Shown here one piece after another: positions 6,053-55,389 of a stretch of 64,000 nt of DNA. How positions within the stretch are numbered: position 1 is the stretch's first letter; every line of letters begins with the position of its first letter. Source of the stretch: Siphonodentalium dalli (lineage: Eukaryota; Mollusca; Scaphopoda; Gadilida; Siphonodentaliidae); assembly GCA_032622095.1 (NCBI GenBank), contig CP136067.1, forward strand, positions 77,092,705 to 77,156,704, given 5' to 3'. A model generated the notes under the pieces. That model saw only the letters and a list, made by a program, of their open reading frames with translations. It was not told the origin of the DNA and did not search any database. A program made the position numbers and the translations under genes.

Positions 6053-6065
6053 CATGAAAAGGGTG

Positions 6066-6345
6066 TCAGACCGATTTTCCGAAGACCTATTACTACGAAG
6101 GCCCACAACTCCGAAGACCCGATTCTCCGACGTCCCACAACTCCGAAGACCCGATTCTCCGACGGCCCATAACTCCGAAGATCCGATTCTCCGAAAGCCC
6201 ATAACTCCGAAGGGCCGATTCTCCGAAAACCTATAACTCCGAAGGGCCATTTCTCCGAAGACCTATAACTCCGAAGGCCCGATTCTCCGACGGCCCATAA
6301 CTCCGAAGGTCCGATTCTCCGAAGGTCCGATTCTCCGAAGATTTT
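6066..6345 (+). repeat. Left-arm tandem array of TCCGAAG modules
   Basis: About 18 modules of 14-16 bp alternate between a GATTCTCCGAAG type and a CATAACTCCGAAG type, with GCCC, ACCC or GTCC linkers. The open frames on both strands here are repeat translations (arginine-, proline- and serine-rich), not genes. Confidence 0.9.
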
Positions 6346-6391
6346 GTTTTATCGGGGTATTATCGTTTACTAAATAGTGTACAGTCCAGTG

Positions 6392-6594
6392 GCGAAGCCA
6401 AGCGGTCCCAAAATTCCTACTGCCCCCATTAAACCTCTACTTGCTATTTCAGACAATATGGGCCCCTACCAAAACATGTCCAATGTCATGTAAACGCCCG
6501 GAAATCGTTCAAGGGGCATCAAAATATTCAAACTTTTCCTACTGCCCCCACCTAAATGGGAATCCTGGCCCGCCACTGACTATACACCAGATAC
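6392..6594. repeat. Inner module of the foldback, short copy, CAGTGGCG ends
   Basis: It starts CCAGTGGCGAAGCC and ends GGCCCGCCACTG, so it has short inverted ends of its own. It shares ATGTCATGTAAACG.CCGGAAAT with the inverted copy at 6728-7008 but lacks about 80 bp from the middle. It may be a separate MITE captured before the foldback formed. Confidence 0.65.
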
Positions 6595-6727
6595 TATATA
6601 ACGTTACGTTGGCCCATGCGATGCCAGAGTAAAATGTACAGGGGTGAACGGGGAAGAACTTGTCGCCCCTGTGCGTGTTAGGCTACTCTGACATTCTTGC
6701 AGCGTTTCGTTATAATATACCCGATGC

Positions 6728-7008
6728 ACACCAGTGGCGGAGCCAGGGTTCCCATTTAGGGGTGCACATTAATTAGCATATGTGGGGGATATATCATGCA
6801 TATGATATGCCGAAAGCATATCACGAAGGCCTGATTTGGGGAGCGCATGCATTGGAGGGGTCGCCCCCAATCGTTGTTCCGGGGGCTCCCCTGGGCAGGA
6901 ACACTGTGAATATTTGAATGCCTAGGAGGGATTTCCGGACGTTTACATGACATTTGACATGTTTTTTGGGGGGGCGGTCTTCCATAGGGCCCCATTGACT
7001 CCGCCACC
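6728..7008. repeat. Inner module of the foldback, long inverted copy
   Basis: It begins CCAGTGGCGGAGCC and ends ACTCCGCCACCGG. Compared with the left copy it has an extra G/C-rich stretch holding the inverted pair GGGGGCTCCCC and GGTCGCCCCC. It reads opposite to the left copy, as expected for one long foldback. Confidence 0.65.
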
Positions 7009-7049
7009 GGACTGTACACTATTTAATAAGCGATAAAACATTATCTTCG

Positions 7050-7300
7050 GAGAATCGGACCTTCGGAGAATCGGACCTTCGGAGAATCGGCCCTTCGGAG
7101 TTATATACCTTCGGAGTTATGGGCGTTCGGGGTTATAGGCCTTCGGAGTTATGGGCTTTCGGAGTTATGGGTATTCGGAGTTATGGGATTTCGGAGAATC
7201 GGGACTTCGGAGTTATGGGCTTTCGGAGAATCGGGGCGTCGGAGAATCGGACCTTCGGAGAATAGGACCTTCGGAGTTATGGGTCTTCGGAGAATCGCTA
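7050..7300 (-). repeat. Right-arm tandem array, inverted CTTCGGAG modules
   Basis: Modules CTTCGGAGAATCGG and CTTCGGAGTTATGGG alternate and mirror the left arm. The order of module types is not identical between the arms, which suggests repeat turnover since the element formed. Confidence 0.9.
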
Positions 7301-7316
7301 CGTAACCCATGAAAAG

Positions 7317-16997: not shown

Positions 16998-17448
16998 ATG
17001 CACGATGGTAAGCCCAGTACACCCATTACACGATGGTGAGCCCAGTACACCCAGTCCATGATGGTAAGCCCAGTACATCCAGCACATGATGGTAAGCCCA
17101 GTACACTCAGCACACGATGGTAAGCCCAGTACACACAGCACATGATGGTAAGTCCAGTACACCCAGCACATGATGGTAAGCCCAATACACCCAGCACATG
17201 ATGGTAAGCCCAGTACACCCAGTACATGGTGGTAAGCCCAGTACACCTAGTACATGATGGTAACCCCAGTACACCCAGCACATGATGGTAAGCCCAGTAC
17301 ACCCAGCACATGATGGTAAGCCCAGTACACCCAGCACATGATGATAAGCCCAGTACACCCAGCACATGATGGTAAGCCCAGTACACCCAGTACATGATGG
17401 TAAGCCCAGTACACCCAGCACATGATGGTAAGCCCAGTACACCCAGTG
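16998..17448. repeat. 28-bp minisatellite, about 16 copies
   Basis: The unit runs CATGATGGTAAGCCCAGTAC plus ACCCAGCA, with an exact 28-bp spacing in the better copies (for example 17281, 17309, 17337). Variants are CACGATGG, TACATGATGG and GCCCAATAC. Because 28 is not a multiple of 3, all three frames of the minus strand stay open and give the same 28-residue repeating peptide (MYWAYHHVLGVLGLPSCAGC-like). These are not genes. Confidence 0.95.
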
Positions 17449-29183: not shown

Positions 29184-31502
29184 TTATGTATCGTTTGTGC
29201 AATCAGGGCATCTTCGGTTTTTGCATCGCACGCTCGCTGAATAGGTATTAATGATATCCGTTTTCAAACGTTTTCGGAACACATGTCTTGATTGTTTAGA
29301 GGTATATTTACTTTCTAGGGAATTCCACATAAAGGGGAATGAATGGTATGGGAGAACTTTAGAAAAAGAGATGGTCCTGATTTTTTTTTGTAATATAGGA
29401 TTAGGTTGTCGTCTATTTGGTTCTGCTCTCTTGTCATACATACCAGAAAAAGACACCGGTAAGCGATCGTAGTACCAATCATGCATGAAAATGGATGCAT
29501 GTAATTTATGTAAATCATCTATTTTTAAAATGTTTTCTTGTTTGAAAGAGGATCGGTGTGACTTCTATATTTTTTGTCACATATAATTCTGATGGCTCGT
29601 TTTTGTAATAAATATAGTTTCTTCACTGCCGATACATGTCCCCATATTTGGATGCCATAAACTAAGTGGCTTTGAATTAGGGCGAAGTATAATGTTTTGA
29701 GAGCCTTGCTCGGGAGAATATGTTTAACTTTATTAATGCAATAAATTGCATGTGACATTTTTGAGCATACAATAGAAATGTGTTTATTAAAGGTCAGGTT
29801 TTCATCTATATGGATACCTAAAATTTTGGCAGACGATTCGTTCCGCTTGTTCCCTATCCGTCGAAGTTCGGCTCCATTGAGATATATTTTAATTGTATTC
29901 CATTTTTTGTCATTGTTTTGTGTTTGCAAGAGCATATAATTGCTTTTGTTAGCATTGATGGCTAGTTTGTTGCAGCAACACCAGTCAGATAGATTTCTTA
30001 ATTCGTTATTGACATAACTTTGGATTAACGCTTCATTTTGTCCACTGGCCATAAGGGTTGTATCGTCGGCATATGATAAGAGATCCATAGTAGTTGCATT
30101 TGACATATCGTTCACGTAGAGGAGAAAAAGTATGGGCCCGAGTAAGGATCCCTGAGGAACACCACATGATGTTTTTAGGAGATTTGACTTGCTTCCATTG
30201 AATTCTACGTATTGTCGTCTCTCATTGAGATAGCTTCGAAACCAGTTGTTTGCCATGCCTCTAATTCCATAATGTTCAATTTTTGTAAGTAAGATTTCGT
30301 GGTTTATTGTGTCAAAAGCTTTGGACAGATCAAGAAAAAGGGCTACGATGGAATCTTTCGTGGGCTTGTCGTTATTTTTCACAACATGATCCAGTAGATG
30401 AATGATGGGATGAAAAGTTGAATGGTTTGGGCGAAATCCGTACTGATGTTTAAATAAGATGTCCGATTCATTAAGAAAATCAACTAAACGTTTTTTGCAT
30501 GAGTTTTTCGAGTAGTTTAGAAAATGCGGGAAGAATGCTTATTGGACGATAGTTGTTTATATCCCCCTTGTCACTATTTTTCGGTATTGGTACAACTTTA
30601 GCTATTTTCATTTTGTTGGGAACATGACCTTGTTTGAACGACAAGTTGAATATATGCTTTAATGCTGGTGCTACAGAAAATATGGTTTCCTTCATCAGTT
30701 TTGTAGATATTCCATTGAAGTCACTGCTGTTTTTTCCATTCATTGAGTAGCAAGTTAAAATAACCTCTTGGATTGTGGTGGGCGTAATATTTAGCTCGTT
30801 GCTTTGTCTATTCGTTAAATAATGGAGGAAGTTTACATATGTGTGATTTTCAATAAGTTCTGTCGTTTTTTGACCTATATTGGAAAAATAGTCATTAAAT
30901 TTTTCAGCGATAGTGTCAGGATATATAAACTGTATGTTGTTATCATGTAGAACATTCGGGTAGCCACCCGTATTTTTGTCTCGTTTTATTGCACCTTTGA
31001 GGGTCTTCCATGTTTCTTTTAAACTATACTTATTCTTTTCTAATATCTCACAGTAATACATGCTTCTACTTTTCTGGATAAGTTTGTTATATAGTTGTCG
31101 ATATTTGAGGTAGGAATTCGTATGGATGGAGGAAGGCGAGCTTAGTTTACGGGTATATAGTTCTTGTTTCTTAAGTGAAGATCTTATTAATCCGGTGGTC
31201 ATCCATGGTTCGCGTTTGATGAATGTTTTGGGTATGTTTCGGGTAATGGGCGGAAAAGCTACGTTGTATGCTGTCAAATAGATATCCAAAAAGTTTTCGT
31301 ATGCTTGATCTGCATTATTACAATCACAAACCGAATGGAAACTACACGATTTAAGAGTATCGTTGAATTTATTAATATTTTCTTGGGAAAAGTTTCGTCG
31401 GGGAGTGCGTCTGGTTTCATGTGGGGTTTTTAATCGGCTATGTCCGTTATGACCTTCGGTGTCAGTGAGAAATATATACCCCAAAGTGATCTGACAAATC
31501 AC
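29184..31502 (-). pseudogene. LINE reverse transcriptase, two frameshifts
   Basis: In order on the minus strand: linker; fingers block KIAKVVPIPKNSDKGDINNY; RPISILPAFSKLLEKL; a frameshift in an A-run at about 30485; YGFRPNHSTF; LDLSKAFDTINHEILL; GVPQGSLLGPILFLLYVND; the catalytic box LLSYADDTTL; AKILGIHIDENLTF; HLVYGIQIWGH; and a second frameshift near 29545. It then reads on to TGA at 29184 through FMWNSLESKYTS and FRKRLKTDIINTYS. YADD and the PQGS box assign it to the CR1/L2/Jockey group; I cannot name the family. All catalytic residues are present, but the shifts break the protein. Confidence 0.9.
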
Positions 31503-37555: not shown

Positions 37556-38104
37556 CTGCACACTACACAAAATCACAATTCATAGAGAAAAAACTTTAAC
37601 AGAATTTTACTTAACCCCTATTGCTCCCGGAAGTTGAGGTCACTGGGCCCCATTATTCGCGGAACGTCAGCATCTTTTTCTGTCATAGTGAGCCAATGTT
37701 TGTAATCGCTATAATGGTAATCGTGGTTTTACAAAACCGTTCTAGTACTAAAGAAAATCAATAATATTACGACGTCAGTAAGCATAAAATGGACCATATT
37801 CGCGCTCTTTAATATTGCCGTTAATCTGATAAAGCGGACTCTTTTGAAAGTCGATCTGACCATCAAACGAATGTATCGCATTATCTTCTGATATAAAAAA
37901 CATACACAAAACATAGTATTATGGTATAAAAACCGATGAGTCATCTTCAAACGGACATGGCTCATTTGAACCTCCGACTTTTATCTAATTAATTTGGAAA
38001 GACGGATAAGAATTGTTGATAAATACACGAAGTAGCGACATGCAGGAGTTATGTACTCCGGAAAAAAACTCGAAATCATTATATTCCAACTGTTAGTCAT
38101 TTTC
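37556..38104. other. No gene seen
   Basis: Unassigned DNA leading into the 41-bp satellite. Confidence 0.4.
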
Positions 38105-38650
38105 GCTCTTCATTTCACCATACCGGGAATACACTAACGTGAAACGCTCTTTATTTCACCATACCGGGAATAGACTAACATGGGACGCTCTTTATTTTAC
38201 AATATCGGAATACACTAACAGTGAACGCTCTTTATTTAGCCATACCGGGAATACACTAACAGCGAATGCTCTTTATTTCACAATACCGGGAATATGCTAA
38301 CATGGAAAACTCTTTAATACCGGGAATAAGCACTAACATTGAACGCTCTTTATTTCACCACACAGGGAATACACTAACAGGAAACGCTCTTTATTTAACC
38401 GAATAGGGAACACACTAAGACGAAACGCTCTTTATTTAACAATACCGGGAATACACCAACAGGGAACACTTTTTTATTTCACCATACCGGGAATACACTA
38501 ACATGGAACGCTCTTCATTTCACTATACCGGGCATACACTAACATGGAACGCTCTTCATTTCACTATACCAGGCATACACTAACATGGAACGCTCTTCGT
38601 TTCACTATACCGGGCATACACTAACATGGAACGCTCTTTATTACTCCACA
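38105..38650. repeat. 41-bp satellite array, about 13 units
   Basis: The unit is GCTCTTTATTTCACCATACC then GGGAATACACTAACATGGAAC. Early units vary (ACGTG, AGTG, AGCG before the next GCTC); the last four are almost uniform (CTATACCGGGCATACACTAA). The complement of one unit matches the interior of the TTAA-flanked element at 2745-2790 and similar segments at 42070, 43130, 55120 and 59216, so the satellite probably arose from a transposon. Confidence 0.9.
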
Positions 38651-38892
38651 CTAAAGTTTAATGTCCGTAAAACTATATAATTATGTTGCTATTTATCGCA
38701 TCATTCAGATACCAAGAACCGGATCGGGATGAAACTAAAACGAACATAATTTGACGCTTAAAATCGCCTCATGCATTAAATTCGATTTTCAACGCCAGTT
38801 TATTATTATTTGTTCGATATATAATCATCAACATAATTATTATGCTCATAGATGGTCTTTTTATCATGAGGATTATGAAAGGGATAAAGGGA
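38467..38892 (+). repeat. 426-bp tandem duplication, first copy
   Basis: It contains the last four satellite units plus a 250-bp unique flank from CTCCACACTAAAGTTTAATG to GGATTATGAAAGGGATAAAG. The copy at 38893-39318 follows directly; I saw no difference between them by eye. Confidence 0.95.
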
Positions 38893-39318
38893 CACTTTTT
38901 TATTTCACCATACCGGGAATACACTAACATGGAACGCTCTTCATTTCACTATACCGGGCATACACTAACATGGAACGCTCTTCATTTCACTATACCAGGC
39001 ATACACTAACATGGAACGCTCTTCGTTTCACTATACCGGGCATACACTAACATGGAACGCTCTTTATTACTCCACACTAAAGTTTAATGTCCGTAAAACT
39101 ATATAATTATGTTGCTATTTATCGCATCATTCAGATACCAAGAACCGGATCGGGATGAAACTAAAACGAACATAATTTGACGCTTAAAATCGCCTCATGC
39201 ATTAAATTCGATTTTCAACGCCAGTTTATTATTATTTGTTCGATATATAATCATCAACATAATTATTATGCTCATAGATGGTCTTTTTATCATGAGGATT
39301 ATGAAAGGGATAAAGGGA
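38893..39318 (+). repeat. 426-bp tandem duplication, second copy
   Basis: Direct head-to-tail copy of 38467-38892, including its own four satellite units (38893-39068). Very recent, or possibly an assembly artefact. Confidence 0.95.
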
Positions 39319-40430
39319 CCGAAAGCCCGTGAGACTTGAAACACATTGACTCGGGGACACGGGAACATACGGCTGAATTCGACTCTCAATCACGGTAATG
39401 ACTTATCAATTAGTGAACGGAATTTATCGCTTCAAATGGATTTTATGGGTCTCGCTCATTGTGCACAGTGACGTTAAAGAGTGTTATTACGCCCCGCTAT
39501 ATTATGGGTGTTTACTGTTACGCTGGTCTGGCCGTGCCAATGTGCGATGGTGATATCTGGGAGGACAACACATTTCGGGTTTCACGCGATGCGAGTTATT
39601 TTAGGAAATTGTAGTAAAGTTGATCTGGCCATGTCAATGGAGCTATCGCGATTGGGGAAAAGCTCACAGGACAACGAATTTCGGGTTTTCGAGGATGTAT
39701 CTTCGCGGATGTCTCATTGTTGCAGTATGTAACTTTTATGACCGCGTTAATTGCTTTCGATGTTTTGGTATGAACACTGGCTGGGCCAATCTTGAAGATT
39801 TTATTGCGAGGAACACAATGCATAATATAAAATTTTGCTGATGACGTATGTCTCAGTTAGAATGTAAAATAAAGGTCGTATTGCGAAGTACCGGGCATGT
39901 ATTTAATCCGATTAGTATATTTTTGTCCGCATAAATTTAGAGGCTTTCTGGTGTGGTGAATGAGAACCCTGCGGTAATAAGCCGTGGTTTTTGTAATAAT
40001 TTGAAAGGATTAGCTGTTTTAACGGAATTCTGAGGTGGTTTGTTGTTGAAACTAATATATGCTATATTATAAATTATATATACCTAATAATATGATCTTG
40101 AGGGCGTTACCATTTCTGACTATGGTTTTCTTGTTTATCTGTTTCCATGATATGTTAAAACAAAGATTGTCATTCTCGCCGTTGTTCTAACAGTTGGAAG
40201 AAGTAACAACTTTCTACCAAATGAATAAGTAGACCAAATTATATGAACCACACAATAGTATACTATATATTAATCATGCAACTTCGGTTTGAGGTATGAA
40301 AGTAGGCTCGTTTTGCTAAATCCAGATATGGTTCCGGTCGGGTGATAAAAAAAAACGACAAATACGTCAAATTGATTTATACGGACTTTATGTAACACAG
40401 ACACATTTATTCAATGAATATAATTTATTA
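39319..40430. other. No supported gene; weak internal direct repeat
   Basis: GGTCTGGCCGTGCCAATG (about 39523) and GATCTGGCCATGTCAATG (about 39622), each followed by ACAAC.(C)ATTTCGGGTTT, form a diverged repeat with a period near 100 bp. Short frames across it have no domain. Confidence 0.4.
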
Positions 40431-43888: not shown

Positions 43889-44376
43889 GTTGTCCCCCGA
43901 AAACTATTTTTGGGGGACTATTTAAACAGCCGGTGTCCGTCCAAATTTGGTATGTGAGTTTATCAGCTCAAAACACAGGTCAAGTTCGATTATGGGTTCG
44001 GTTTGCCCATTTTTGCGGAGTTATGGCCCTTGTTAACTTAGAATTTGACGATTATTTTGGTTTCCGGGTGATGACTTTTGTTATTGTAATATGATTGTTT
44101 TTAAACTTGGTATGTGGATTAACCCCACGAAGATACGGGTCAAGTTGGAATTTGAGTTTGTTCCGCCAATTTATGGTCCTTTGTTGACTTAAAAGTTGCC
44201 GATTATTTTGGTTCCCTGATGATAACTTTATTTTTAATTATCTGATTGTTTTTAAATTCAACTGAATCTCTTAATATTTGGTACATGGTTCAAAGACAAA
44301 AGCTGAATTTGGTCACGGTCCGATGAGTTTTAAAAAATGCTATCCTTACTAAAAAGCCACCTTTTCGGGGGACACG
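43889..44376. mobile_element. DNA element with TGTCCCCCGAAAA ends and internal repeats
   Basis: TTGTCCCCCGAAAA (43890 on) is inverted as TTTTCGGGGGACA near 44362-44374. The inside has about three diverged units of roughly 150 bp built on AACTTGGTATGTGG, CAGGTCAAGTTCGA and TTATGGCCCTTGTT. A decayed relative without clear ends lies at 63340-63620. I do not recognise a transposase superfamily. Confidence 0.65.
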
Positions 44377-54777: not shown

Positions 54778-54917
54778 CTATCTATTATGACAACTTAAAG
54801 GCACGGGCGGCGTTCGTTGCAGAAATATTCATATTTGTTCAAATCGCCCTATCTATTATGACAACTTAAAGGCACGGGCGGCGTTCGTTGCAGAAATATT
54901 CATATTTGTTCAAATCG
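54778..54917 (+). repeat. 71-bp tandem duplication across the end of TTAA element B
   Basis: CTATCTATTATGACAACTTA through CATATTTGTTCAAATCGCC is present twice, at about 54778-54847 and 54849-54917. Each copy has its own TTAA and element end (AGGCACGGGCGGC). The duplication took in flanking target DNA, so it happened after insertion. Confidence 0.9.
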
Positions 54918-55389
54918 CCATCAACAGAAGGAATATTAAAATATATATAGTTTTGTTCATATGCCAAACATAATCAGCGCGTAAATAGTATATTGTCGTC
55001 AAGACGTACGATGGTGTGCGTAAACAAGAACCTGCTCGTGTTACATAAGTTTTGCCTCTGTTTACATAACACAGCGCAATTCTATTGGTTAATCACACAC
55101 AAATGATATAAGAGCTCTTTATTATTTCCATATCTGGAAAACAGTAACAAATAACGCTCTTTATGTTTACCATATCCGGATATAAACAAAAGCCAGGTTT
55201 TGTAACGTTTTTTGCTTTTGTTTACACAACAAAGGAAAACATTTGACAATACTGTTTATGCCATATTTCTGATTGGTATATAAGAACAAAGTCTGTCTAT
55301 ATTTTACTATTCTTTCTGTTTATGGTGGTTTTTGACGGAGCTGAATATTTTAACAGCATACTCACTGCCAACGCCGCCCGTATCTTTAA
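54795..55389 (-). mobile_element. TIR element flanked by TTAA, copy B (inverted relative of copy A)
   Basis: TTAA at 54795-54798 (and again 54866-54869 after the 71-bp duplication) is followed by AGGCACGGGCGGCG; the right end is GCCGCCCGTATCT, then TTAA at 55386-55389. Internal landmarks of copy A occur in reverse order and complement. About 515 bp lies between the inner TTAA sites, shorter than copy A (712 bp). No coding capacity. Confidence 0.75.

Follow-up and report, generated by a model that had tools for sequence, protein, structure and literature searches.

The window analysed here, a 64,000-nucleotide stretch of the genome of the scaphopod Siphonodentalium dalli, carries near its left end a foldback element of 1246 bp with GGT...ACC termini. 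The element lies between two identical copies of a 9-bp sequence and is built almost entirely of inverted arms. Its parts, and the duplicated target sequence on either side, are as follows.

6053..6061, no strand: left target site duplication (TSD), CATGAAAAG, matching 7308-7316 at 9 of 9 positions
6062..7307, plus strand: the foldback, a non-autonomous copy of a MULE family, with copies in the same genome and with ends and core in common with a 6015-bp transposase-bearing element
6062..6341, plus strand: left arm, consisting of the terminal sequence GGTGTCAGA and then an array of 16-bp units of type A (CCGATTCTCCGAAGNN) and type B (CCATAACTCCGAAGNN)
6342..6386, plus strand: left spacer between array and inner module (inverted-repeat pair I25), with 30 of 45 bases paired with 7010-7044 in the predicted fold
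6387..6578, plus strand: left inner module with CAGTGGCG ends, the shorter version; the parent element has this module too
6579..6731, plus strand: middle, the hairpin loop region, in which about 4.5 kb of gene-bearing sequence is absent at about 6664/6665 relative to the parent
6732..7009, minus strand: right inner module with CAGTGGCG ends, the longer version, opposed to the left module
7010..7044, minus strand: right spacer, placed by inverted-repeat pair I25 and the predicted fold
7045..7307, minus strand: right arm, a 16-bp unit array with the terminal sequence ...CGCTACGTAACC
7308..7316, no strand: right TSD, CATGAAAAG, the exact partner of the left copy

Other repeats are found elsewhere in the window. 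Two reading frames, at 2-1492 on the plus strand and 29528-30538 on the minus strand, match the reverse transcriptase domain RVT_1 and look like non-LTR retrotransposons. Positions 38104-39319 hold an array of units of about 41 bp (ATTTCACCATACCGGGAATACACTAACATGG...), including a 426-bp segment that is repeated twice at 99%. A 28-bp tandem array of about 16 copies, 92% alike, occupies 17004-17446, where minus-strand frames are open over much of the length, and two identical 71-bp tandem copies lie at 54778-54919.

An earlier note on this DNA had reported a 1246-bp inverted repeat at 6062-7307, with an outer array and an inner CAGTGGCG-ended block in each arm, and our analysis confirmed this layout. 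Alignment of the left half with the reverse-complemented right half scored 329, far above chance: 100 dinucleotide shuffles gave a mean of 20.7 and a maximum of 29. The arms, I1 and I2, are 280 and 221 nt long with complementarity of 74 and 81%, respectively, and the short terminal sequence of the right arm is GGTTACGTA, against GGTGTCAGA in the left. We counted 17 CCGATTCTCCGAAG-like sites in the window (0.17 expected) and 16 CCATAACTCCGAAG-like sites (0.40 expected), all of them confined to the foldback apart from one stray at 44013. The note had described alternating modules of 14 to 16 bp. There are indeed two unit types, but both A and B units keep a strict 16-bp register, and their order is not alike in the left and right arrays. 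In the predicted single-strand fold, the left array has 218 of its 280 bases paired with the right array, and the left module has 121 of its 192 paired with the right module. The 13-base CAGTGGCG module motif was matched three times in the window, where 0.27 matches are expected, and one of 100 shuffles also reached three; the motif by itself is therefore weak evidence for the modules, against which their paired fold must be set. The inner left CAGTGGCG end was placed by eye. An Rfam scan returned nothing at the gathering threshold. The exact array patterns had no match in viral or bacterial/archaeal contig collections, a result that is thus little informative.

We then searched the host genome (2.23 Gb in 9 contigs) with the element as query. 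This search yielded 1425 first-look candidates, and most of the best 40, which were scored, are near full length. The 23-bp ends in their majority form, of which the window copy's own ends are variants, occur exactly 619 times (left) and 764 times (right) across the genome, while reversed-pattern controls gave no match. On contig C1 we paired 83 of the 100 listed left ends (those up to the last listed right end) with the 100 listed right ends. Seventy-two left/right pairs fell within 30 kb; 71 of these span 890-1601 bp, and one spans 24.4 kb. In this last pair, at C1:156924482-156948841 (L091), the ends are in matching orientation, and the piece inside the right end has no foldback match.

Copies resemble one another closely. 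Thirty-seven sampled copies differ on average by 1.2% from their own consensus and by 2.3% from each other, and the window copy lies 2.2% from that consensus. By this measure the scored foldback copies are young, with the reservation that the estimate leans young because the 40 are the best matches among 1425 candidates. Our array parser halted early at mutated units in some copies, the left array of the window included, and ran through 25 copies completely. Among these, 24 copies have left arrays of 10-19 units and one (L016) has 34; right arrays have 12-17 units, and the core between the arrays measures 695-710 bp. One foldback copy contains an insertion of another very young repeat family (L040:875-1220). 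This insertion was considered as a fragment of the parent and rejected; it is a separate repeat with 1043 first-look candidates, and most of the 40 that were scored are 100% identical.

Exact TSDs are present at 37 of the 40 scored copies, with a length of 8 bp at 30 and of 9 bp at seven, the window copy among the latter; no duplication was found at L004, L020 and L037. A script tallied 29 of the 8-bp and all seven 9-bp cases, and L024 was added as an 8-bp case (CCGGTGGC) after its right end had been re-placed. As a control for chance, 1332 mismatched flank pairs gave six 8-bp matches and no 9-bp match, and six is the number that the L018/L022/L023 trio alone yields. These three copies have common flanks and the TSD AAGCACTG, and so probably represent one insertion that was carried along as host sequence multiplied. 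Since the 8- and 9-bp matches begin at identical element ends, neither length is the other plus a chance base. The exact 9-bp TSD of the earlier note thus holds for the window copy, but not as the norm of the family, in which 8 bp is the commoner length. The note had also named a single genomic copy, or copies with unmatched flanks, as grounds for giving up its reading, and neither was found, given hundreds of copies and the flanks just described.

Sites without the element were sought in six comparisons, two of which are clear. At the L034 site, the sequence runs on unbroken in L058 and in L091, with the 9-bp repeat present once in each. The L012 site is likewise unbroken in the repeat that L040 carries, where the 8-bp repeat is present once and has one mismatch. 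L034 compared with L042 shows a gap of 6 bases next to the repeat and a single mismatch inside it, and the pairs L030/window and L033/L080 are too diverged to serve. Both the 8- and the 9-bp length are therefore supported by empty sites.

Longer versions of the element were approached through right ends that lack an exact left partner. Contig C1 has 28 of these; we sampled 19, together with the right end of the 24.4-kb pair. Seventeen of the 20 pieces match the foldback core at least partly, and L075, L078 and L091 have no core match. Relative to the consensus, L074 has 227 bp and L077 has 211 bp of extra sequence at the hairpin centre (consensus 648/650), and the middles of L079 and L082 are longer still. 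A small GGATTCCA-type minisatellite is present in these two longer middles and in the parent element described below. With the L079 middle as query, we obtained 576 first-look candidates and scored 40. Four of these places lie less than 3 kb from MULE domains and in the same relative orientation, at a spacing of about 2.8 kb at C7:200.40, C3:79.53 and C3:254.16 Mb and of 1.4 kb at C2:169.77. Conversely, each of the five best transposase places has a match to the middle within about 3 kb.

The locus on C7 (L094, C7:200395800-200402900) contains a 6015-bp element that begins GGCGTCAGACCGATTTTCCGAAG, ends CTTCGGAAAAAACGCTACGTAACC and is flanked on both sides by ACCATACT, an 8-bp TSD. It carries both arrays and both modules, with a gene between the modules. 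The first predicted exon matches MULE (PF10551) at 56.3 bits (cut-off 27.6) and FLYWCH at 24.4 bits (cut-off 23.6), the latter a marginal pass. Two predicted exons, joined at GT/AG signals, give a transposase of 470 aa; the splice junction is a prediction from the DNA alone. A second parent, at C3:79.52 Mb, has the same ends about 6.1 kb apart and the 9-bp TSD GTCTCAAAC. Its first exon has a listed identity of 100%, and its MULE frame is open for 423 aa; we read this element at its ends, and its interior is known from search matches. A search with the first exon gave 16 places, all of which were scored. At seven loci the match extends for several hundred bases; it is nearly full-length at four of them, split at one, partial at one and gapped at one. 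The remaining places are pieces of 38-80 bp or stretches at 73% identity. In the split locus, at C3:254.16 Mb, 1275 bp interrupt the transposase exon, with an 8-bp exon overlap, GTACGGGG. Of its two junctions, one was read, and there a foldback right end follows GTACGGGG; the other is placed from coordinates alone. The unsplit first-exon copies serve as the empty site for this insertion.

The earlier note had proposed looking for a longer, transposase-encoding relative with matching termini, and the 6015-bp element is such a relative. Outside the arrays, parent and foldback consensus are 96.6% identical in the left core (1 gap column) and 97.8% identical in the right core (24 gap columns). Consensus 649/648 joins parent position z1095 to z5602, where z denotes L094 reversed, so that about z1096-5601 is absent from the foldback. 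In the one parent that was counted, the parser found arrays of 26 and 21 units, whereas those of the foldback consensus have 19 and 15. At the left terminus the parent reads GGC..CCGATTTT and the consensus GGT..CCGGTTTT. Because of this unlike terminus and the 2-3% that separate the cores, the foldbacks may stem from a source other than the sampled parents. Judged by their sequences, foldback and parent nevertheless have in common their ends, arrays, modules, the flanks of the middle and duplications of 8 or 9 bp. We conclude that the window foldback is almost certainly a non-autonomous, internally deleted derivative of this 6-kb Mutator-like transposon, with FLYWCH and MULE domains, in the same genome.

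The features of the element can also be compared with those of known groups. Its MULE-domain transposase lies inside ends that are common with the foldback, and duplications of 8 or 9 bp in the scored copies, and of 8 and 9 bp in the two parents, fall within the 8-11 bp given for MULEs (PMC6446971). An N-terminal FLYWCH finger, here at its marginal score, together with a MULE domain is the combination of the Phantom/Muta group. A terminal motif followed by short-period repeats, which marks Muta1-like type 2 foldbacks, is seen as the 16-bp register of the window, the copies and the parent. Rehavkus is described with a PHD finger in its transposase and a minisatellite before the 3' TIR (PMC6446971), whereas a Pfam scan of the two L094 exon frames at E 0.1 did not return PHD and the arrays stand in both arms. 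Nor did the scan of the L094 exons find the P-type transposase with a THAP domain that marks the P superfamily; MULE and FLYWCH were the only matches.

Other origins for the foldback must be weighed against the MULE parent. Its arms are tandem arrays that fold on each other, as a local inverted duplication of a satellite would also produce with no transposon involved. That reading is refuted by the hundreds of copies dispersed through the genome that share their ends, by their target duplications and by the empty sites, and we give it practically no credence. Movement by the Merlin (IS1016/IS1595-type) family would fit the 5'-GG ends and the 8- or 9-bp duplications reported for that group (PMC8101967), and the genome holds 62 IS1595-type matches. 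We examined 30 of the 62 loci and found the arrays and ends absent within about 1.5 kb, apart from a single stray B-like site at two of them, and the same 30 loci showed no TIR with an 8- or 9-bp TSD. The gene that lies between such ends in the longer element codes for a MULE domain, and DDE_Tnp_IS1595 was not found in the L094 exons by the Pfam scan. Merlin is thus a most improbable source of the transposase. A second MULE was a candidate partner on grounds of proximity. At C1:214.71-214.73 Mb (L071), tandem units of about 5.08 kb carry a separate 1.77-kb FLYWCH-MULE element and half a foldback. In this array of three tandem units, at C1:214.71 Mb, the exact right end of the truncated foldback half lies about 2.1 kb from the MULE domain. 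However, this MULE has boundaries of its own (about L071 2380-4149), at which copies elsewhere also end, as seen in the best 40 of 7812 candidates, and we rejected it as the partner on these grounds. Versions of its site without the insert are present at C1:214730162 and C1:215640670, and its transposase is 28% identical to that of the parent over 273 aa. The chance that it is the partner is therefore minute.

A further alternative concerns the inner modules rather than the whole element. Ends of the CAGTGGCG type resemble the ends of many hAT elements, which we counted in favour of a reading in which the modules go back to a hAT-type MITE that entered one arm and reached the other through conversion between the arms. 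The module position also matches in both arms, in the foldback as well as in the parent. Against this, the modules have no flanking direct repeat by eye, and their immediate flanks, also judged by eye, are inverted, as expected if the module is integral to the arm. We regard a hAT origin of the modules as unlikely, although it deserves more weight than the alternatives above.

Derivation of the foldback from the MULE parent links it to several published elements. The closest is Muta1 of Aedes aegypti, which is reported to have 8- or 9-bp TSDs and 145-bp TIRs that combine a 10-bp terminal motif with nine 12-bp repeats, spaced by 3-4 bp, and which is named beside Muta5, another MULE family of that mosquito (PMC5225508). 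It encodes a FLYWCH-type MULE transposase of 504 aa in two exons, transposes in yeast, has more than 300 non-autonomous derivatives with variable repeat number and is called a type 2 foldback (PMC5225508). The family studied here resembles Muta1, as far as it is described there, in its 8- or 9-bp TSDs, its TIRs of terminal motif and array (period 15-16 bp in Muta1), its two-exon FLYWCH-type MULE transposase and its numerous non-autonomous derivatives of varying repeat number. It differs in the size of the parent, which is 6015 bp against 3198 bp, and in its arms, which exceed those of Muta1 by hundreds of bp and take in a pair of non-repetitive modules. Units of two types alternate in its arrays, and its main derivative is arm over nearly the whole length. 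In root-knot nematodes, Tm1 is described with foldback arms of ~14-bp repeats, asymmetric terminal motifs, 8-10-bp TSDs and a FLYWCH and MULE (Phantom-type) transposase, and its derivatives were proposed to be deletions of the autonomous form (PMC3169594). Repeat-built foldback arms, asymmetric termini, duplications within 8-10 bp, the transposase and the proposed origin of derivatives by deletion are points of likeness. In contrast, the TSDs of Tm1 are given as mostly 9 bp, against a modal 8 bp in our sample, and the account of Tm1 reports a single putative autonomous copy per isolate, where we found two transposase-bearing copies with the first exon listed at 100% identity. Tm1 is also termed inactive and senescent (PMC3169594), whereas the foldbacks sampled here are young and numerous.

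Likenesses to other groups are more partial. Phantom MULEs have a MULE domain, FLYWCH in some members and, where given, TSDs of 8-10 bp (PMC6446971). Tetris and DAIBAM of Drosophila virilis are likewise foldbacks with internal tandem repeats and 8-10-bp TSDs, but their repeats are ~220 bp long and their report describes three structurally complete copies and no autonomous partner (PMC4079207). Galileo also has long, internally repetitive TIRs, within whose repeats binding sites for the THAP domain of its transposase have been placed, but that transposase is of the P-element type as opposed to MULE (PMC3688188). The earlier note considered the foldback a separate family. This is true of its sequence; the kind of element, on the other hand, is already known, since its traits are published for Muta1 and partly for Tm1 (PMC5225508, PMC3169594, as far as these sources describe them). 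Our literature search, with Repbase and most subscription journals beyond its scope, returned no description of this foldback family.

These comparisons suggest how the family may operate. The earlier note supposed that a Mutator-like transposase moves the foldback in trans, and this idea is now well supported. A parent with the same ends does encode a MULE domain, and from the common ends we infer that its transposase would act in trans at the GGT...ACC termini of the foldback. The 16-bp units are putative transposase binding sites, by analogy with the TIR repeats of Galileo, and the FLYWCH finger is the part that probably binds them. The transposase would then excise the foldback and reinsert it with a staggered cut of 8 or 9 bp. 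The foldback itself would have arisen through loss of about 4.5 kb of middle sequence, including the gene, so that hardly more than the two arms remained. The existence of longer middles points to gene loss in steps or by several alternative losses, and the several middle sizes fit internal deletion in the course of transposition or of repair. The arrays would afterwards gain or lose whole 16-bp units through slippage or unequal exchange.

Foldbacks have repeatedly been proposed to arise through elongation of TIRs, and one wording of the proposal adds loss of the transposase gene (PMC4079207; PMC3169594). In the present family the gene-bearing parent already has repeat-built arms, which are longer than those of the foldback consensus, so gene loss would suffice to make a foldback. 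The left array of L016, with 34 units, exceeds the 26 of the parent and runs counter to this trend, for which one parent was counted. As an order of events, deletion is not a new idea, since short forms were proposed as deletion derivatives in the Tm1 paper (PMC3169594). We tentatively extend it to a broader scheme, one that we hold to be possible but short of probable. In this scheme, the foldback design would have come first, in an autonomous element, with offspring arising by gene loss alone; the arms would have swapped blocks, as in the CAGTGGCG module pair; and the array would serve as a quickly evolving platform for binding, the length of which may tune mobility.

A single genome holds a parent whose two-exon transposase gene is predicted to be uninterrupted, copies with middles intermediate in length, and offspring in the hundreds. 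What had been an isolated foldback becomes part of an apparently recent transposon system, in which the origin of foldbacks, by arm elongation or by plain gene loss, and the role of array length become directly testable.
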